The notes under the pieces were generated by a model. It was given only the letters and a program-made list of their open reading frames with translations. It was not told the DNA's origin and did no database searches. From positions 62,001 to 126,000 of the forward strand of contig SZOZ01000007.1 of NCBI GenBank assembly GCA_030263455.1: a stretch of DNA of 64,000 nucleotides, given 5' to 3'. The translations under genes were made by a program, and so were the position numbers. Below, in pieces: positions 14,309 through 36,120 of this stretch. Each line of letters opens with the position of its first letter. Positions within the stretch are counted from its first letter, which is position 1. This DNA comes from Synechococcales cyanobacterium CNB. GTDB taxonomy: Bacteria; Planctomycetota; Phycisphaerae; Phycisphaerales; UBA1924.

Positions 14309-14962
14309 CTACCGGTCTCGGCCGAGCGTGCCTCGGTGTGTGTTGTCGATCGGCACGCCCTTGGACCAGACAGGCTTGGGTCCGATCAGCCCATGGTGCC
14401 AAAAGTTCGGCACGCCGGGCGTCAGCGACGCCTGAACTAGTTGCTCTCCGCTCAGATCGGACCACAGAACCGAACTCACGATCCCATCAACACAGCATGC
14501 GCCGAAGCCATCGGGACGATCAGGGAAGTCGTAGGCCGTGACCTGTCGCATGAATCCCTTGCTAGACGGAAAGATGACCGCTCCCAGTCGCTGCGCGCGC
14601 CACTGAGCAGGCCCCTGTTGGGTGTTGATGTCCCAGTATGCGAAGTCAGTATAGTGGGTGTCGGCAAACTTGTAGTCGGAAAGGTACCGCTGCGGAGTTC
14701 TGGCGAGCGCCTGCCGAAGGCGCGGGGCGGCCGGGTGGGTCAGGACACGCGGGTCCGGGACGGGATCGAATGCGAGATGGGCGTAGGTACTGTTGTTGAA
14801 CCACCCCCCGGGAATGCGGATTCCATCTTCGAGCGTGATCGTCTGGAGATTGCCCATCTCGATCGTTCCGTACTGCGGCTCGAAAATGACGGGCAGGCGA
14901 TCGTCGTTCGAAGCGGCATACACAGAGCCGAGAGAGCCCAGGACACAGATGTTTGAGAGTGA
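14309..14962 (-). pseudogene. Truncated pseudopilin-like gene, 3' part only
   Basis: About 217 C-terminal residues remain, opening with SLSNICVLGSLGSVYAASNDDRLPV, which is how these proteins continue after the N-terminal pilin helix; the helix, prepilin cleavage site and start codon are missing. It aligns by eye with the intact pseudopilin at 30895-31629: YWDINTQQGPAQW against YWEPETRTGPSQW, and a THRGTLGRDR end against TIRGWDGRDRR. At 14962-14965 the sequence switches frame into an IS3-type transposase start. Inference: the gene was cut by an insertion or insertion-mediated rearrangement. Confidence 0.7.
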
Positions 14963-15375: not shown

Positions 15376-15941
15376 ATGACCCGTTCGGCCGCACGTGTGC
15401 GACCCTGGCTCGCAGGCAGACGCGGACTATCCCGCTTGTCGCAGCGACGGCCCTGTTCGTGGTCTGGACGTTCAGCGGCCTTTGGAAGATCGTGGATCCT
15501 GGCGCGTTCATGCGTACTGTTCGTGAGCACGGTGTCCTCCCTTCGTGGTTCGTCCCCGTTGCCTGGACGGTGGGCATTGCCGAGGTCCTGCTCGGAGCAC
15601 TCATCGGCCTGGCGTATCGATCGCTTCACCGCGCGCTGAGACTCGTCAGCGTGCTGTCATTGTGCTTCCTCTCGATGTTTGTGTTCTATTCTCTGCATGC
15701 ACCACAAGCGGCGTTGGATCGAGTCGGTTGTGGGTGCGGACCTACGCTACCGGGGAAGCGTCCGGGACATGACGCGTCGTTCAGCCGTGAACTTCACTTG
15801 TTCGCTATTTTCGGCATGGCTCTGATCCATGTGCCGTTGATCGTTCGTCGTGTGAAGCGGTGGAGCGCGGATCGGCAACACTCGGCGTCGATCGGCGCGC
15901 ATGCCGCCACTGGTACGCTCAGCGACCGTCATGCATCGTGA
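15376..15941 (+). CDS. MauE/DoxX-like redox membrane protein, probably frameshifted near its start
   Basis: The frame ending at 15941 encodes four hydrophobic helices and a C-x-C pair (VGCGCGPTLPG), matching MauE-like proteins and the intact copy at 31629-32117 (DCHCFG). The first helix (TIPLVAATALFVVWTFSGLWKIVDP) extends upstream of GTG 15459, so that GTG is too late; the frame is open only from 15375 and has no ATG or GTG before the helix, merely a CTG at 15405. An ATG at 15376 (MTRSAARVRPWLAG) lies in the neighbouring frame, so one indel around 15411-15420 would join them. The 3' end overlaps the convergent lipoprotein gene by 23 bp. MauE proteins are thought to supply disulfides to periplasmic partners. 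Confidence 0.55.
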
Positions 15942-30760: not shown

Positions 30761-30844
30761 GCGGGCGTGGCGGAACTGGCAGACGCGCGGGGTTTAGGTC
30801 CCCGTGGCCGCAAGGCCGTGCAGGTTCGACCCCTGTCGCCCGCA
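30761..30844 (+). tRNA. tRNA-Leu (anticodon UAG)
   Basis: Acceptor GCGGGCG (30761-30767) pairs with CGCCCGC (30837-30843), followed by discriminator A. The anticodon arm is CGGGG-TTTAGGT-CCCCG with TAG in the loop, reading CUA. A long variable arm (GGCCGCAAGGCC) marks a class II tRNA, and the T loop is GGTTCGACCCC. CCA is not encoded. No integrase or attachment site is seen beside it. Confidence 0.95.
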
Positions 30845-30894: not shown

Positions 30895-31629
30895 TCATCG
30901 CCGATCCCGGCCGTCCCAGCCGCGGATGGTGTGCATGCCGTAGATGCCGATGGGGAGCCATGTGCCATCCCACGAGCCTTCCCCGTTTGGGTACGGCTCG
31001 ATGAGGTCGGCTTTGGCGAAACGCCCCGCGCTCCCGTCCACGAACGCGAGGCCGATCCCATCCTCGACGCCGGGGTGCGGGAACCAACGCACCGGATGGA
31101 TCTCGGTGATCAGCGCCTTCTGCGCAGGGAACGACGCGCTGCTGAGCCGGCTGTGACACCACTGGCTCGGCCCCGTGCGGGTCTCCGGCTCCCAGTAGGC
31201 GGGGGCCGCGAGGAACGCGCTCGATAGCAGGTAGTTGATGCCGATGTTCTTCGGATCATCGGGCGAAGGGTCGGGATCGGCGGCCGGGTGGAGGAAAGAG
31301 CGGTGCTTCAGGACGCCGCTGTAGTAGTCCTCACACAGCGCATATTGCCAAAGGTACACGGTGTGGAAGTAGGGGAAGACGATAACTTTGTTGCAACCGC
31401 GAATGACAGACCGTTTCGCCTTTGGATCGGCGAAAGCGGGGAAGTAGTCGTCCCAGTCCGCGGCGTATGCCGCGAGCACCTGCGCGTGCGATCGTGTGTT
31501 CGCGACGGACACCGTGTCGCGCGCCGAGGCTCGAACATGGCCGAGCGTCGGGAGCAGAAGACCCGTGACAAGGGCTGTCAGAAGAACGACGAGGATCATC
31601 TCGAGCAGGGTGAACGCGCGACGTGGCAT
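30895..31629 (-). CDS. Pseudopilin-like protein (prepilin-type N terminus)
   Basis: 244 residues. RRAFTLLEMILVVLLTALVTGLLLP is a class III prepilin signal and helix: cleavage before Phe6, Glu at +5. The head domain contains YWEPETRTGPSQW, a FVDGSAG strand and the C-terminal TIRGWDGRDRR seen in planctomycete type II secretion-like pseudopilins. Its ATG overlaps the stop of the MauE-like gene (TGATG), so translation is coupled. A truncated paralogue lies at 14309-14962. No secretion ATPase or secretin is in the window, so it either uses a general system elsewhere or has a separate role. Confidence 0.82.
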   Translation of the reverse strand: MPRRAFTLLEMILVVLLTALVTGLLLPTLGHVRASARDTVSVANTRSHAQVLAAYAADWDDYFPAFADPKAKRSVIRGCNKVIVFPYFHTVYLWQYALCEDYYSGVLKHRSFLHPAADPDPSPDDPKNIGINYLLSSAFLAAPAYWEPETRTGPSQWCHSRLSSASFPAQKALITEIHPVRWFPHPGVEDGIGLAFVDGSAGRFAKADLIEPYPNGEGSWDGTWLPIGIYGMHTIRGWDGRDRR

Positions 31630-32117
31630 CACGCACCTCCCTCCTCGTCCGGCCCGCGTGTCGTGCCGCCTCGCCACCGGAAGGCGAGCATGACGCAGAG
31701 CACGCCGTTGCGAATCAGCGTGTCCCGGAGCGCATCCTGCCGGGCCTGATGGCGCAGAAGACGGCCGAAGCAGTGACAGTCCGGCGCCTCCGCAACCGCA
31801 TACTCGACAAGCATGGCCGCCGAGAACACGACGATCAACGCCAACGCGCCCCGTGCGACGATGCGCCTTCGAATCCCGAGCAGCCACGCCCCGGCGAGCG
31901 CCACCTCGGCCGCGATCACGCCGAGCGAGATAGGCGTGGCTAAGGCGCTTGGCACGACCGTCCACCGTGCGAGGGCCTGCGCGAACTCCCCCGCATCCAT
32001 CGCCTTGGCCAGGCCGGCAAGCAGGACGACGATCATCGCCAGCGTCGGCAGGACGGTCATGGCCATCCTGCGGACGCGCAGGCGTGGTCGATCCGCGCTG
32101 TCGCCCAGAGCGGTCAT
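31629..32117 (-). CDS. MauE-like redox membrane protein
   Basis: 162 residues from ATG 32117; ATGs at 32126 and 32135 are alternatives. Four probable helices (21-40, 62-82, 90-110, 133-148) and a C-x-C pair, Cys114 and Cys116, in DCHCFG just after helix three, as in MauE/DoxX redox-associated proteins. In methylamine dehydrogenase maturation MauE acts with MauD in forming the many disulfides of the small subunit. Here the next gene upstream encodes a small secreted protein with eight cysteines, which could be its client. The partner MauD is absent from the window. Confidence 0.75.
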   Translation of the reverse strand: MTALGDSADRPRLRVRRMAMTVLPTLAMIVVLLAGLAKAMDAGEFAQALARWTVVPSALATPISLGVIAAEVALAGAWLLGIRRRIVARGALALIVVFSAAMLVEYAVAEAPDCHCFGRLLRHQARQDALRDTLIRNGVLCVMLAFRWRGGTTRGPDEEGGA

Positions 32118-32167
32118 CGTGCACATCGCTCCCATTTCTCAGTGACGGTTGCTCCGGCGGCAGTCGC

Positions 32168-32548
32168 TCACTGCCCGCCCCCACCCCCGCCGACACAGAG
32201 ATCGCCGTTGGCGACAGTCCCCTGGATGGAGAAGGAGCAGGAGCGAAAAACCACGCACGCCCCGGTATCATTCGGTTCCCACCATGTCATGTGGCAGAGG
32301 AAGCCGTACGGCGAGGAGAGTTTCCTGTTCCCGACGTTGACCGTGTTCGTCACCGTTTCATCCTCAACACGGAGGGGAGTCTTGCACGCGAGGCTCGTGG
32401 AGCAGACGCCGCCCCCAAGATCACACGCCTGACCAACCGTGACATTCGAGTAGCATTCGGGCGACGCCAGCACCGCGACTGCAACTCCCCCGGCGGCGAC
32501 CGCCAAGCAGAGTGCGAGAGCGTTCTTACGGAGTTCTCGAGTGTTCAT
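32168..32548 (-). CDS. Small secreted protein with eight cysteines
   Basis: 126 residues. A basic start and one hydrophobic helix (9-29) act as a signal peptide or anchor. The rest has eight cysteines (32, 42, 49, 55, 85, 98, 104, 118), enough for four disulfides, and ends in a GGGGGG run. I recognise no family. GAAGGGA-like sequence lies upstream of the ATG. It lies 16 bp after the preceding gene and about 50 bp before the MauE-like gene, so co-expression is likely. Confidence 0.7.
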   Translation of the reverse strand: MNTRELRKNALALCLAVAAGGVAVAVLASPECYSNVTVGQACDLGGGVCSTSLACKTPLRVEDETVTNTVNVGNRKLSSPYGFLCHMTWWEPNDTGACVVFRSCSFSIQGTVANGDLCVGGGGGGQ

Positions 32549-32564
32549 GGTCCCTTCCTTGTTC

Positions 32565-33722
32565 TCACTGGCCTCGCTTCAGCCTGAGCCACACCAGCGC
32601 GCCGACGATGACCGCAACGAGCGTCCATCCGGTGGGCTTGAGCCATGAGGGAGGGGGTTGCCGCGAAGCGTCCGGGGGGAGAGAGACCGTCACCCGCTCA
32701 CCGTCCTGCCATGTCTCCGCGGTCCCGGAGCCGTAATCCACGATGGACGTGAAGGTCACGGGGCCGCGGACGGGATCCGTGCTGTCGGCTGCCGGCCGCG
32801 TCATCAACGGGTCGAGTTCGCCGGGTTTCAGAGGTCGAATCTCGTGCAAAGCCGTCGTCATGTACGCGAGACCATCGGCATCGATCGAATCCACACGGGT
32901 AGCCGCCCATCGACCGATGGCGTCCACGAAGAGCCATTCAGACCACACCTTGCGATGGCCCAGCCACTTCGGGTCGTCGTTGGACGCAATCAGTGTCATA
33001 CTGTCGATGACAACTCGGCTCGCGTCAACGTGCCCGCTGTATTGCCAGACACGCTGCCCCGATGCGGACGCGGTCGTCGCCTCCCACACACCATCGCGCA
33101 CGACGGAACTTACCGGCGTGACCCCGAGCGGGCCGGACGAGAACCCCATCGCAAGCCAGTCGTTGATGTAATGCGGCAGGGCGGAAATCAACCCGGCCGG
33201 GTCGTGGCCCTCGGGCGGCCGGCGCGCGTCGAGCAGCCGCAGTTCCTTCGGCGTCATCCACCACGTGCGGGGGCCGTCGTACGCGATCTCGGCGTACTCG
33301 TACCCGGCGGGAAGGTGCAACGGGTGCGTCATGCTCAGTCGCCAGCGGTTCGGCCCGCCGTACCACAGGCGGTAGCGCGTCGTCTTCGGCCCGATCTCGA
33401 TCTGCGACTTCAGTTCATCGTGCGTCCGGCGCAGCGGGTGGTCCGGCTTGCCCTCGATGATCTCCGCCAATCGCGCCAGTTCCGCCTCGTCGCCGGGAAT
33501 CCTCGTCAGGATCGAGTAGTCGATGTAATGCCCCTCGGGAAGCCCCACCTTCTCCGCAGCCTTCCACTCCGCGCGGAACCACTCCAGCGAACCCAACTCC
33601 TGCCCGTGCGCCGCGGCCGCAACGAACACCGAAAGCAACACACATGCGAACGCGCATATGCGATTCGCTCCGAGCGACGGCCGGAAAGCCGTCATGCCGC
33701 TCCGCCGCCCGCATCCTCTCAT
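32565..33722 (-). CDS. Secreted or membrane-anchored protein of unknown function
   Basis: 385 residues from ATG 33722, which has GGGAG 7 nt upstream; ATG 33695 (MTAFRPSL) is a weaker alternative. The signal peptide ends near VAAAAHGQ. The middle resembles outer-membrane-lipoprotein-sorting proteins of the LolA type only in texture: short strands such as TTRYRLWYGGPNRWRLSM, EYAEIAYDGPRTWWMTP and GQRVWQYSGHVDA. The C terminus has a proline-rich linker, one helix (GWTLVAVIVGALVWL) and a basic end. It heads the block that continues with the eight-cysteine, MauE-like and pseudopilin genes. Confidence 0.62.
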   Translation of the reverse strand: MRGCGRRSGMTAFRPSLGANRICAFACVLLSVFVAAAAHGQELGSLEWFRAEWKAAEKVGLPEGHYIDYSILTRIPGDEAELARLAEIIEGKPDHPLRRTHDELKSQIEIGPKTTRYRLWYGGPNRWRLSMTHPLHLPAGYEYAEIAYDGPRTWWMTPKELRLLDARRPPEGHDPAGLISALPHYINDWLAMGFSSGPLGVTPVSSVVRDGVWEATTASASGQRVWQYSGHVDASRVVIDSMTLIASNDDPKWLGHRKVWSEWLFVDAIGRWAATRVDSIDADGLAYMTTALHEIRPLKPGELDPLMTRPAADSTDPVRGPVTFTSIVDYGSGTAETWQDGERVTVSLPPDASRQPPPSWLKPTGWTLVAVIVGALVWLRLKRGQ

Positions 33723-33837
33723 GCCCCGGCTCCCGCAGAAGTCTCCCGCCAGAATGCAGATGCACGCAAGGCCCGCTCGTGTGACATGGATTCCCGAGTT
33801 TTTTCCGTTGCTCCGCCCCAACGGGCGGGGGCAGGAC

Positions 33838-33942
33838 TTGACACGCCCCGCCGGAGTCGTTCTACTCATCCCCGTGGGCCGCGGTTGCGTTCCGGCACGG
33901 CCGGAGGGAGTCGCCGTGCCTCATCGCGTGCCACCGAAGGAC
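33838..33942 (+). repeat. Partial duplicate of the ECF sigma gene promoter and first codons
   Basis: This 105-bp segment matches 35477-35580: TTGACA (33838-33843), the same 17-nt spacing to TCTACT (33861-33866), a GGAGG at 33903 and a GTG at 33916 beginning VPHRVPPKD (the complete gene begins VVHRAPPKD). After nine codons similarity ends and the frame closes at 34002. It is therefore a promoter plus truncated sigma gene start, in direct orientation, on the far side of the TPR-dockerin gene. Confidence 0.75.
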
Positions 33943-33971
33943 TCGGAGGCACGCGAAGCCGTGCCTCACCC

Positions 33972-35273
33972 TCAACGCTTCGAGGTCCAGCGCTCGAGGT
34001 AGAGCAGCAGGTCAGCGGAATCGGTTACCCCGTCGTTGTTGTAATCTCCCTCGCCCGCGACCCACGCGTTCAGAAACCGAACGAGGTTCGTGGTAGGATC
34101 AGCCCCTACGGCCCCGAGCTTTTCGATCAAACGATCTTCGAGGCGCTCTCGCTGCTTTCGTATGTTCTCGCGTTCTCTCTCGTCGGGCAACAGCTCGCTG
34201 AGCCTTTCGAGCGAGTACAAGGCGAGGTCAGAACGACCGAACTGCGCAGCCCCTTTCAGTACGGAGAGCAGGGTTACCTCTGATGATCGCATCCGCCGGT
34301 CAAAGGACCCACTCTCGCGCTCGACCGCCGGAGCCGGGTGCTTCCGGATCGTGTCAAGCCGATCGAGCGCCTCACCGGTCACTCCGAGCCACTCATCGAC
34401 TCTGCCCCGTGCCTTGAGCGCCTGACCGAGCCTCTGCGCTACGACCTCGACTGTCCACGGGTCACTGACCAGGTCGGGATCATCCCACAGGCGCCTGAGC
34501 TCGGCGATGTAGGCGTCCGTAGATCTCGTTGCATCGATGAGTTCGGCGCGCACGAGGCGCAGCCGAGCGACCGCCGCATTTCCGCCGACCACATCCTGAG
34601 CGTATTCGCTGAGGAGTTCATCGACGAACTCGATCTGGGAAGTCTTGTCTCCCAGTCGGCCATGCATGTCCGCAGCTGCTCTGAGCGCTGATGCCACCGT
34701 CGCACGGTCAAAGAGGCCCCGATCCCTGACGATCCTGGCATTGACGCTCAGCGCACCATGCACGTCGCCGCGAGCCAAGAGCAACATCCGTAGTTGGGAA
34801 ATGCCGCTGAGGTAGCTGCTTGTGAACCGGCGTTGCATGGACGGATCCGCATCGTAGAGCGCCAACTGCTCCTCGAACGCCCGTTCCGCCTGACGCGACT
34901 GCCCGAGCACAAGCCAGTACTGACCCTGCATCCTGTGTGCCGCCGCGAGATCAAAGCCGCTCTCCGGATCCTCCACCACCAGATTCAATACGCGGATCGC
35001 CTCCGCGTGTGCCTCGACTCTCGCAAGCGCAGCAGCGGCGCGTCGGAACAGATTACAGTGACCCGGCAGACCCAGCTCTCGCAATCGCAGCGCGTCGTTC
35101 AGGTCTTCCGCGATCAGAGCGAGGTACGCTTCCGGGCCGACAACTGCCACCCATGCGCCTTTCCCGACAGGAAGAGCGGCTTCCTGAAACTTCTCTGCGG
35201 CGGGTCGCGGGGCGGGGTCGCCTTGCGCATAGGCGCTGAACGCGATCGTCATCGCAAGAATCAGCTTCGTCAT
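33972..35273 (-). CDS. Secreted TPR-like protein ending in a dockerin loop
   Basis: 433 residues from ATG 35273, which has GGAG 9 nt upstream; ATG 35279 is too close to it. Signal peptide MTKLILAMTIAFSAYAQG. The body is all-helical with TPR-like repeats (AAAHRMQGQYWLVLGQSRQAERAFEEQLALY, QLRMLLLARGDVHGALSVNARI, SALRAAADMHGRLGD). The last 30 residues contain one clear dockerin loop (DYNNDGVTDSADLLLYLERW) and end in TSKR, without the Gly-Cys of other dockerin proteins here. The gene lies between the two copies of the sigma promoter repeat. Likely periplasmic or surface scaffold protein. Confidence 0.7.
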   Translation of the reverse strand: MTKLILAMTIAFSAYAQGDPAPRPAAEKFQEAALPVGKGAWVAVVGPEAYLALIAEDLNDALRLRELGLPGHCNLFRRAAAALARVEAHAEAIRVLNLVVEDPESGFDLAAAHRMQGQYWLVLGQSRQAERAFEEQLALYDADPSMQRRFTSSYLSGISQLRMLLLARGDVHGALSVNARIVRDRGLFDRATVASALRAAADMHGRLGDKTSQIEFVDELLSEYAQDVVGGNAAVARLRLVRAELIDATRSTDAYIAELRRLWDDPDLVSDPWTVEVVAQRLGQALKARGRVDEWLGVTGEALDRLDTIRKHPAPAVERESGSFDRRMRSSEVTLLSVLKGAAQFGRSDLALYSLERLSELLPDERERENIRKQRERLEDRLIEKLGAVGADPTTNLVRFLNAWVAGEGDYNNDGVTDSADLLLYLERWTSKR

Positions 35274-35476
35274 GACCATCTTCTCCAGCACGCGAGGGGC
35301 TTCTTCCTGCTGATGCGGAATCAGGGGTCGGTATAGCACCCGCAACACGGGGGATCGGGCAGCGGATCACCGCAGAGCGGTTGACAGCACGCCTCTCTAC
35401 CAAACTGATACTCCGGACTCGGCCTCTCGTGACGCCATCTTTTCGGTTTTGTTGACCTCAATGCTCGTGAATAGAC

Positions 35477-35505
35477 TTGACAGATACCGTCCCCGTCGTT
35501 CTACT
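35477..35505 (+). promoter_or_regulatory. Promoter of the ECF-like sigma gene
   Basis: TTGACA (35477-35482), 17-nt spacer, TCTACT (35500-35505). The same elements with the same spacing recur in the duplicate at 33838-33866, where the intervening bases differ, which supports their being functional. The predicted leader to the GTG at 35554 is about 40 nt. Confidence 0.65.
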
Positions 35506-35553
35506 GGGGGCGTGGGCTGTGGGTGCGTCCCGGCACGATCGGAGGGATTCGCC

Positions 35554-36120
35554 GTGGTTCATCGTGCGCCCCCGAAGGACAACCCCGACCTGCTCGCCAA
35601 GGCCCTGGGCGGTGACCGCGACGCTGTCGCTTCCTTCCTCTGCCGCAACGCCGCTCGAATCAAGCGGCGGTATTGCGCCAGGCTCCGCGGTCCTGTCCGC
35701 CGCTTGATCGACGCCGACGACATCTTTTCGGCCATCGCTCAGCGGCTGGATGCATACGTTCTCTCGGGGCGGTTCGCCGTCGAGAGCGAGGCCCAACTCT
35801 GGGCTTTGATCTTCCGGATCGGCGACCGGGCCGTTTCGCGGCACGCCAAGCAGAGCGGCCACGGCCGCGGCCCCGGAAGCCTCAACGGCGCCCGCCTCGG
35901 GCGCCACAGTCCCTCCTCGGAGCGGCCTGACCTCACCCCCGTCGGGATGCTGCGCGAGGTCCACCGCGCCGAGGACCGCGAACTCCTGAGGCTGAGGCTC
36001 GCGGGCGCGCCCTACGCCGTCATCGCTCCGAGGCTCGGGGTCTCTCCCGCAGCGGCCCGCAAACGCTGGCAACGCCTGATCGCGGACCTTCAAAGACGCA
36101 CGAACAGGGGGAGAGCATGA
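35554..36120 (+). CDS. ECF-like RNA polymerase sigma factor, planctomycete type
   Basis: 188 residues. GTG 35554 is chosen because GGAGG lies 8 nt upstream and the duplicated copy preserves exactly this start; the open frame further upstream is leader. Region 2 is around residues 20-95 (LIDADDIFSAIAQRLDAY then WALIFRIGDRAVSRHAK), and region 4 near 140-180 is an HTH (LLRLRLAGAPYAVIAPRLGVSPAAARKRWQRL). No anti-sigma factor is adjacent. It is divergent from the TPR-dockerin/MauE/pseudopilin block and may control it. Confidence 0.78.
   Translation: MVHRAPPKDNPDLLAKALGGDRDAVASFLCRNAARIKRRYCARLRGPVRRLIDADDIFSAIAQRLDAYVLSGRFAVESEAQLWALIFRIGDRAVSRHAKQSGHGRGPGSLNGARLGRHSPSSERPDLTPVGMLREVHRAEDRELLRLRLAGAPYAVIAPRLGVSPAAARKRWQRLIADLQRRTNRGRA

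Follow-up and report, generated by a model that had tools for sequence, protein, structure and literature searches.

The 64-kb stretch of DNA analysed here (the window) carries, on its minus strand, four adjoining genes that encode a membrane-anchored LolA-fold protein, a cysteine-rich secreted protein, a MauE-like membrane protein, and a prepilin. The genome from which the window comes carries about fifteen (14-15) versions of this cassette, and the same core recurs in related genomes, where MauE and the prepilin are often fused. The four genes are interpreted as one instance of a repeated unit by which a single disulfide-rich protein is produced, oxidised, and sent out through a shared pseudopilus/secretin machine, an interpretation whose chances of being right are judged to be about even. 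In the open-access literature searched, which covered no preprints and few subscription papers, no description of the cassette was found, nor any report linking MauE with a pilin or with pseudopilins in Planctomycetes.

Organization of the Locus

The original prediction placed five minus-strand genes and one plus-strand gene in a single module, and all six are present as reading frames (Table 1). The module itself proved to be real, though with a four-gene core, and it recurs elsewhere; neither the sigma-like gene nor the dockerin-like gene belongs to that core, so that the boundaries first drawn were wrong. Core intergenic gaps are 16 and 32 bp, and the TGATG overlap noted earlier joins the stop of the MauE-like gene to the start of the pilin gene. 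The secreted protein described as having a C-terminal helix has both this helix and a signal peptide and, from its most likely start at 33695, is 376 aa long. The predicted 126-residue, eight-cysteine protein is indeed 126 aa long; of its nine cysteines, eight lie in the mature protein and the other in the signal peptide. It is the sole ORF in the 64-kb window with the characteristics of a cysteine-rich secreted protein, and because of this uniqueness, together with the recurrence of the core at dozens of loci, the neighbourhood is more than chance. Pfam and NCBIfam revealed no dehydrogenase among the six genes, as had been claimed, and likewise no known RiPP modifying enzyme and no MauD thioredoxin-like partner. 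PHROGs and PADLOC gave no match for the window's core proteins, and a promoter scan found none (0.4 expected), with terminators at chance level. The second MauE gene in the window had no detectable cysteine-rich neighbour.

Table 1. Features of the cassette locus and of the second MauE gene in the window.
Feature	Position	Strand	Remarks
Prepilin (pseudopilin)	30895..31629	-	Core gene 4; RRA|FTLLE site, C-terminal GWDGRD motif; cassette pilin family
MauE-like four-helix membrane protein, C-x-C	31629..32135	-	Core gene 3; PF07291; presumed disulfide catalyst
Secreted cysteine-rich protein	32168..32548	-	Core gene 2; eight mature cysteines; presumed client
LolA-fold protein, signal peptide and C-terminal membrane helix	32565..33695	-	Core gene 1; translation, AlphaFold, Foldseek
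Direct repeat copy 1 (70 + 32 nt)	33835..33942	.	83% and 75% identity to copy 2
Dockerin-like gene	33972..35291	-	Outside core; no match between same neighbours in L076
Sigma-like gene	35449..36120	+	Outside core; possible local regulator; below curated sigma cut-offs
Direct repeat copy 2	35474..35580	.	Pair of copy 1
Second MauE gene	15426..15821	+	Decayed pilin at 14309-14923 (-)

The names given earlier to the two flanking genes were not confirmed. The protein called a TPR-dockerin protein had no Pfam match at E 0.1 and reached 16.8 bits against an NCBIfam dockerin cut-off of 29, and the ECF-like sigma assignment is weak (sigma70-ECF, 23.7 bits against 42.9; Sigma70_r4_2, 16.7 against 25.7). 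Membership of either gene in the module was rejected. The syntenic orthologous locus L076 keeps the murA, LolA-fold, MauE, pilin, and DoxX-like genes at 76-96% identity and has no match to the dockerin-like gene, of which the C-terminal 40-70 residues alone match elsewhere among 97 loci (L009, L056, L058, and L071). This gene starts 276 bp upstream of the LolA-like start and is flanked by two direct repeats; one weak repressor-like PHROGs match was seen in its product. The sigma-like gene is found in L076 at 54.6% identity and otherwise, among the 97 loci, as just a 47-residue match in L012/L016, which are one genome stretch; it is possibly a local regulator.

Recurrence of the Cassette

The window's genome contains 17 MauE genes above the Pfam cut-off, 14 of them in cassettes with a pilin and a cysteine-rich gene. 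When this genome and its relatives are taken together, a cassette-type pilin lies within 2.6 kb at 60 of 98 MauE loci (on the opposite strand at six loci). At 51 of these 60, a secreted ORF rich in cysteines also lies no more than 1.8 kb from MauE and on its strand; the control gave 6 such ORFs in 470,268 bp of distant flank on both strands, or 0.02 expected per locus. The original prediction had staked itself on the eight-cysteine and MauE-like genes being neighbours in other genomes, and they adjoin there too.

A cysteine-rich ORF is present at 9 of the 38 loci scored as having no pilin, including L014, L079, and L093, which were so scored owing to contig ends or to a pilin that failed the filter. 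At L015, L086, and L119, a MauE gene and a cysteine-rich gene were found and no pilin, while L145 and L151 have pilins with the same C-terminal DNA pattern and no adjoining MauE. Cysteine-rich proteins with even counts could be added by hand in L011, L017, L022, L071, L080, and L122 and are outside the scored set of 51; none was found in L023 and L081. Two of the 51 scored ORFs (L088 and L124) are unusually placed and may not be the client.

Pilins and Their Fusion to MauE

The window prepilin has a prepilin peptidase site, a hydrophobic helix, and Glu+5, and solved mature pilin chains align from the predicted cleavage site onward. Named pseudopilin models score below their cut-offs (GspG, 18.7 bits against 88.85; GspH, 18.6 against 80), and the cassette pilins have in common a G-x-x-G-R-D-like C-terminal end. 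At 24 of the 60 loci, MauE and the prepilin are encoded in a single stop-free frame, and the TGATG overlap of the window stands where relatives have the two fused. Among the matches listed, there are at least 67 full-length stop-free fusions in at least 31 genomes, and 11 of 14 held-out loci have the fusion. Per-genome counts from the order-, class-, and phylum-level scans with A2 are lower bounds because 7-9 candidates were scored per genome at strict cut-offs (1e-25 or 1e-30). Both C-x-C cysteines and the pilin Glu+5 are invariant in 24 of 24 aligned fusions. One pilin position is a cysteine in 10 of the 24 fused pilins, all of type 1, and is not a cysteine in the window's pilin, which was read by eye; since the pilins are without a general common cysteine, the cysteine-rich protein is a likelier client than the pilin. 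Searches of the genome gave a single match for prepilin peptidase and five for secretin.

Pilus decoration is an alternative to export, though an unlikely one, in which the cassette pilin would be a minor pilin bearing the disulfide-rich protein at its tip or side as an adhesin or binding-head subunit, with MauE folding the subunit and nothing being released. The tight linkage of one pilin to each cysteine-rich protein would suit such a subunit, for which the conserved pilin C-terminus could be a docking point, and the TCP pilin can be superposed on the pilin part of a fused MauE-pilin model (Z 4.8 over 137 residues). Linkage alone, however, cannot tell display from release, the TCP pilin match is weak, and scans of the window proteins and of five cysteine-rich proteins recognised neither an adhesin nor a lectin domain.

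The MauE-Like Protein as a Candidate Disulfide Source

The MauE-like identity proposed earlier was borne out by a match to PF07291 at 75.6 bits (cut-off 27), with no match to PF02600 or PF07884. The C-x-C pair is kept in 96 of 96 aligned MauE rows, including that of the window; 95 of these rows are different, L115 having been entered twice with one sequence and L015 left out, and the row label DUFgrp groups together any MauE loci with neither pilin nor cysteine-rich gene. Some MauE copies carry internal stops (L015 and L019). In a model of the fused relative L102, four membrane helices are present with the C-x-C between helices 3 and 4, and since the prepilin cleavage site must be cytoplasmic, the pair is predicted to face the periplasm.

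A profile search of the genome covering DsbB (PF02600) and VKOR (PF07884) gave no match to either at E 0.001, so that MauE is the best candidate disulfide source. VKOR is present in 0 of 10 genomes with five or more MauE matches and in 9 of the 21 others (31 genomes, Fisher p 0.03); with the comparison confined to the family, the figures are 0 of 10 and 3 of 9 (p 0.09; rank test p 0.06). The trend is no more than suggestive, since the genomes are related. VKOR is also absent from several relatives in which MauE matches number just one or two, and its absence is therefore not proof. The conserved pairing, the invariant C-x-C, the mostly even cysteine counts described below, and the lack of a DsbB or VKOR match together make the central idea of the original prediction, a dedicated MauE-like disulfide former for the eight-cysteine protein, well supported; that prediction had left the pseudopilin as an alternative client.

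It is doubtful that MauE acts instead as an assembly factor or membrane chaperone for the pilin or the client, with disulfides supplied by small-molecule oxidants or an unrecognised DsbA system. Foldseek gave no match to the fused model at E 0.001 or better, and the best structural neighbour of its MauE part is NACHO/TMEM35A (Z 10.9, rmsd 2.1 A over 104 residues), which its entry calls an assembly factor; fusion to a prepilin likewise suggests an assembly partnership. Yet VKOR is also among the structural neighbours (Z 5.5), and Z values under about 13 for helical bundles may, according to the tool's own note, reflect a common arrangement only. The invariance of C-x-C and the cysteine-rich client adjoining MauE also argue against this alternative.

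The Cysteine-Rich Secreted Proteins

The window's cysteine-rich protein has no Pfam, NCBIfam, PHROGs, or PADLOC match, and none of five cysteine-rich proteins scanned exceeded a Pfam cut-off. The mature cysteine count is even in 49 of the 51 scored proteins (binomial p 1e-12), while control genes from the same loci with 7-14 cysteines comprise 28 even and 49 odd, the subset that look secreted comprising 11 even and 7 odd. All members are even in 14 of 15 sequence clusters, with both odd proteins in one cluster of 27. Parity is weaker in the held-out set, where 6 of 10 are even as scored and 7 of 10 after correction of one signal peptide; of two further held-out proteins read by hand, L154 is odd and L166 even. 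Even counts are as expected if all cysteines are paired, and the identification of these proteins as disulfide-bonded clients is well supported. Cysteine conservation in homologues, a further point of the original prediction, holds in the syntenic orthologue L076, where each of the eight mature cysteines has an aligned counterpart. Only 15 of 50 cysteine-rich proteins end in a Gly-rich C-terminal tail. The idea that the cysteine-rich protein is everywhere the fastest-evolving gene was not supported: it holds in the window pair (48.5% against 79-83% for its partners), whereas in L011/L080, L018/L096, and L024/L125 the protein is conserved about as well as the other genes.

It is very improbable that the cysteines bind metal or an iron-sulfur cluster, with the cassette handling electrons or metal and MauE keeping thiols reduced. 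The many cysteines, with CC and C-x-C spacing in several clients, would suit such a role, but counts of 8, 10, and 12 were seen, those of 8 and 10 equally often (17 each), which fits pairs over sets of four, and the scored clients (85-178 aa) have signal-peptide-like starts and variable cysteine spacing. Accidental pairing of common pilin-like and MauE-like genes, to which the dozens of prepilin-like matches in the genome might point (55 to the fusion profile, many covering the pilin start alone), has a negligible chance of explaining the cassette given the in-frame fusions, stereotyped distances, common pilin C-terminus, and cysteine-rich control.

The Anchored LolA-Fold Protein

The AlphaFold model of the window's anchored protein (pLDDT 88.7, pTM 0.81) has LolA3 of P. 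gingivalis as its top Foldseek match (E 1.3e-7), and VIA Z values are about 10 to LolA/LolB-type proteins and a DUF1329 protein and about 8 to RseB. The half-barrel fold is recovered with an rmsd of 5.6-6.8 A over 190-220 residues for the top rows. None of five anchored proteins scanned exceeded a Pfam cut-off. A single family for the anchored gene was rejected, as profile comparison joins only types 2 and 5/6 (probability 89); types 1, 3, and 4 are unlinked with each other or with type 2 (type 1 against 3, probability 19 over 14 columns; against 4, nothing), and the LolA fold is shown for type 1 alone.

Proposed Mechanism of Oxidation and Export

According to the export interpretation, the cysteine-rich protein would cross the inner membrane through its signal peptide, whereupon the adjoining MauE-like protein would form, or shuffle, its disulfides with the periplasmic C-x-C pair, presumably passing electrons to the quinone pool. 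The membrane-anchored LolA-fold protein may then hold or guide the client in the periplasm. The pseudopilin from the same operon, in many relatives the C-terminal half of the MauE protein, would be released by prepilin peptidase and join a shared pseudopilus/secretin machine, by which the folded client may be carried out or displayed for a role outside the cell.

A more tentative proposal, regarded as possible rather than probable, is that the MauE-prepilin polyprotein, split by prepilin peptidase, ties client disulfide formation to assembly of a client-specific pseudopilin, allowing a bacterium to pass a large and diversifying range of disulfide-locked clients through one common secretin machine, each by its own adaptor for folding and export. 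If true, oxidative folding and secretion would be linked in a way not known elsewhere, and in bacteria without recognisable DsbB and VKOR.

Comparison With Known Systems

MauE has been speculated to help form the disulfides of the disulfide-rich beta subunit of methylamine dehydrogenase (PMC7794033, citing van der Palen 1997). As in the cassette, that maturation system pairs a membrane protein of the MauE family with a small secreted protein rich in disulfides. The cassette differs in having no dehydrogenase, an unrelated client, an attached prepilin, and 14-15 repetitions in the genome; neither MauA nor MauB was found next to MauE, the neighbours being pilin, cysteine-rich, and LolA-fold genes. 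An independent precedent for pairing MauE with a cysteine-rich protein is provided by candidate RiPP families identified by decRiPPter in Streptomyces, in which a mauE homologue adjoins the gene of a predicted precursor that has eight cysteines or more (PMC7794033). They are presented there as candidate RiPPs, and the available passages of that source mention no pilin or LolA-fold protein (PMC7794033).

The cassette pilins resemble type II secretion pseudopilins in their prepilin cleavage site, Glu+5, and N-terminal helix, and differ in forming a separate multiplied family with the G-x-x-G-R-D-like end and often a MauE domain ahead in the same protein. Similarly, the anchored protein has the fold of the LolA/LolB/RseB superfamily but possesses a C-terminal membrane helix, has no Pfam sequence match, and is encoded with a cysteine-rich protein. 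In DsbL/DsbI-client pairs, such as that of the arylsulfate sulfotransferase operon, a membrane disulfide oxidase is encoded beside its own client; the cassette shares this arrangement, although its oxidase would be of the MauE rather than the DsbB type and a pilin is added. A possible parallel is offered by the NVEALA proteins of Bacteroidetes, which adjoin MauE-like genes; no mention of NVEALA was found in the open-access literature searched.

Significance of the Cassette

Disulfide folding and type II-like export normally rely on machinery of general use. In the cassette, by contrast, a presumed disulfide catalyst is encoded together with its presumed client and a pilin, in a set that is repeated about fifteen times in one genome and that in many relatives includes a fusion. 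The cassette makes the function of MauE, whose disulfide role has so far been speculation, directly testable, as it does the question of how a pseudopilin could be specific to one exported protein, and it reveals that Phycisphaerales have a large and so far hidden repertoire of secreted proteins, probably rich in disulfides.

The MauE cassette and its copies in the genome

All six genes originally predicted at 30895-36120, five on the minus strand and a sigma gene diverging from them, are present (see the table), and the MauE-like protein is a clear member of PF07291; the matches behind the sigma and dockerin labels fall under curated cut-offs. The pilin, cysteine-rich and LolA-like proteins of the window have no Pfam match, and the NCBIfam matches of the pilin are weak only.

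Coordinates of the features in the window
Feature	Position	Strand	Remark
Pilin of second MauE locus	14309-14923	-	sole pilin there, without prepilin start
Second MauE	15426-15821	+	SpoVR gene nearby
tRNA-Leu (TAG)	30761-30844	+	directly past pilin gene 3' end; sole tRNA found in the window
Pilin	30895-31629	-	
MauE-like protein (C-x-C)	31629-32135	-	
Cysteine-rich secreted protein	32168-32548	-	
LolA-fold anchored protein	32565-33695	-	
Direct repeat	33835-33942		83% and 75% identity to the second copy
Dockerin-like gene	33972-35291	-	flanked by the direct repeats
Direct repeat	35474-35580		
Sigma-like gene	35449-36120	+	

The surrounding genome (3.2 Mb, 98.7% complete) contains 18 MauE matches, and the neighbourhoods of the 17 over the cut-off were fetched. 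Fourteen combine MauE with a pilin, a small secreted cysteine-rich protein and a membrane-anchored protein, including one (L014) whose contig ends within the pilin. Of the other three, L009 is of a different kind, with neither pilin nor cysteine-rich gene; L015 lacks a pilin but has a cysteine-rich gene, an anchored protein and a MauE gene interrupted by a stop; and the window's second MauE locus, in which no cysteine-rich neighbour turned up, has the look of a decayed cassette. A locus of another assembly (L159) has MauE, a pilin match and the same SpoVR-like neighbour, likewise without a cysteine-rich gene. Internal stops occur in the MauE genes of two otherwise present cassettes (L015, L019), reflecting either decay of cassette copies or assembly errors. 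L009 (G000:C6:100564), whose MauE gene comes after two DUF1573 genes and a rhodanese gene, and the related L055-L068 form a separate MauE lineage without the cassette pilin, found once each in many genomes.

Six gene orders are distinguished: anchored-Cys-MauE-pilin (type 1, the window's), Cys-anchored-MauE-pilin (type 2), pilin-Cys-anchored-MauE (type 3), pilin on the opposite strand (type 4), MauE-Cys-anchored-pilin (type 5) and MauE-Cys-anchored without a pilin (type 6).

Conservation of the neighbourhood

PF07291 was searched in this genome and 30 relatives, and 80 further stretches around matches were fetched, a few weak or distant matches being omitted. A cassette-type pilin, defined by G-x-x-G-x-D near its C-terminal end, lies within 2.6 kb of MauE in 60 of 98 scored loci. 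Cysteine-rich ORFs, taken as those that begin like a signal peptide and have seven or more mature cysteines, were scored on the MauE strand within 1.8 kb; they are present in 51 of these 60 loci and in 9 of the 38 scored without a cassette pilin, so the predicted neighbourhood is kept in other genomes. Distant flank (470,268 bp more than 2.6 kb away, both strands) held six such ORFs, and thus 0.02 are expected per locus. Across the whole 64-kb window just one ORF is scored, the eight-cysteine ORF of the original prediction. At L116 (G018:C13), four similar open frames surround the MauE-like gene, and one scanned frame encodes PAS and LuxR-type domains.

In a held-out test, a DNA pattern of the pilin C-terminus was scanned across genome contigs and matched 64 stretches, many of which lack every cassette gene and come from unrelated phyla. 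Contigs not used before yielded 14 loci with MauE and pilin, 11 of them fused and 12 with a LolA-fold gene; a cysteine-rich ORF was scored in 10, was read by hand in two more (L154, L166) and is likely in a third (L193). Twelve of the 14 record titles are Phycisphaerales or Phycisphaeraceae. The two titled cyanobacteria, 'Leptolyngbya sp. PLA1' and 'Cyanobacteria bacterium CYA' (L193, L198), carry MauE-prepilin fusions and a LolA-fold gene and are probably mislabelled planctomycete contigs. Three further loci in Phycisphaerae or Phycisphaerales assemblies (L145, L151, L152) have pilins with the same C-terminal pattern but no MauE; the pilin has a RuvB gene on one side and a PLP-enzyme gene on the other (checked with Pfam for L145 only).

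In the same-genus syntenic locus L076 the flanking genes are kept (murA 95.6%, DoxX-like 88.5% identity), and identity to the window is 80.5% for the LolA-fold protein, 82.6% for the pilin, 76.5% for MauE and 54.6% for the sigma-like gene. The cysteine-rich protein shares 48.5% over 101 residues, and despite this all eight mature cysteines align, bearing out their predicted conservation. The dockerin-like gene has no match at this locus and, lying between direct repeats, is a possible insertion.

Fusion of MauE to the prepilin

A single stop-free frame joins MauE and prepilin in 24 of the 60 pilin-bearing loci, two of them in the window's own genome (L013, L024). All 24 aligned fusions retain the two cysteines of C-x-C and the Glu+5 of the pilin. 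A profile of this alignment matched 75 of 251 genomes of the order at E ≤1e-25, 67 of them in the window's family, and among the matches listed at least 67 full-length stop-free fusions occur in at least 31 genomes, all in that family, with at least five more frames covering both halves, each with a stop. At E 1e-30, with the window's genome included in each count, matches came from 9 of the 198 class genomes, every one in the same order, and from 2 of the 199 phylum genomes, both members of the same family. In the MauE tree, type 1 forms one supported group (99/95) with fused and split genes intermixed; the window's TGATG overlap therefore lies where close paralogues continue in frame.

Predicted structures

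The model of the LolA-fold protein (27 sequences; pLDDT 88.7) matches P. gingivalis LolA3 (E 1.3e-7) and LolA, LolB and DUF1329 structures at Z ~10 and rmsd 5.6-6.8 Å, and its C-terminal helix would anchor it in the membrane. For the fused relative L102 (pLDDT 84.5, pTM 0.63), the model gives the MauE part four helices (2-23, which is broken, 33-52, 57-81, 103-123), with C-x-C residues 87 and 89 on the stretch linking the last two, followed by a low-confidence linker and the pilin helix from 148. Solved pilins align starting at the predicted cleavage site. By established prepilin biology, a prepilin site has to lie on the cytoplasmic side, and it follows that the C-x-C loop must be periplasmic. 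The closest structure to the MauE part is NACHO (Z 10.9); VKOR is weakly similar (Z 5.5).

Cysteines of the secreted, presumed client

Where a cassette has one scored protein (51 cases), mature cysteines number 8 (17 proteins), 10 (17), 12 (14), 14 (1) or 9 (2); the count is thus even in 49 and odd in two. Ordinary called genes with 7-14 cysteines at the same loci gave 28 even and 49 odd, and those that look secreted 11 and 7. Fourteen of 15 sequence clusters are wholly even, one cluster holding 27 proteins, so that many of the 51 rows are related. Held-out proteins were even in 6 of 10 as scored and in 7 by hand reading, one cysteine of L198 lying within the signal peptide. Pooled, 56 of 61 are even (p ~6e-12 assuming independent rows), still a strong departure from half. 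Odd-count proteins exist, and the rule is therefore not absolute; in L137, by hand reading, tyrosine replaces one cysteine of its relative L157. The client is very probably disulfide-bonded. The pilins share no generally common cysteine; a cysteine occupies one position in 10 of the 24 fused pilins, and these ten are all of type 1.

Proposed function

A helping role for MauE in forming the disulfides of the methylamine dehydrogenase beta-subunit has been put forward as speculation, and the same source describes three candidate RiPP families of Streptomyces in which a mauE homologue accompanies a predicted precursor with eight or more cysteines (PMC7794033); the pairing of MauE with a cysteine-rich protein is therefore not wholly new. 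In a verrucomicrobial isolate a PulG-like pseudopilin is reported to have 67 homologues, and the genes induced by alginate include one for a pseudopilin (PMC13274419), another sign of pseudopilin multiplication, perhaps for specific tasks. No work joining MauE and pilins was found in the open-access papers searched.

The window's genome has no DsbB or VKOR match despite its many genes for cysteine-rich secreted proteins; of 31 genomes, 9 have VKOR, none of them with five or more MauE matches, a comparison of weak statistics. One prepilin peptidase match and five secretin matches indicate that a machine for cassette pilins exists. Read against the observed cassette, its copy number, the fusion, the invariant C-x-C pair and the mostly even cysteine counts, MauE would oxidise the client, the anchored protein may escort it and the pilin may specify its export or display, a complete chain to which we give an even chance.
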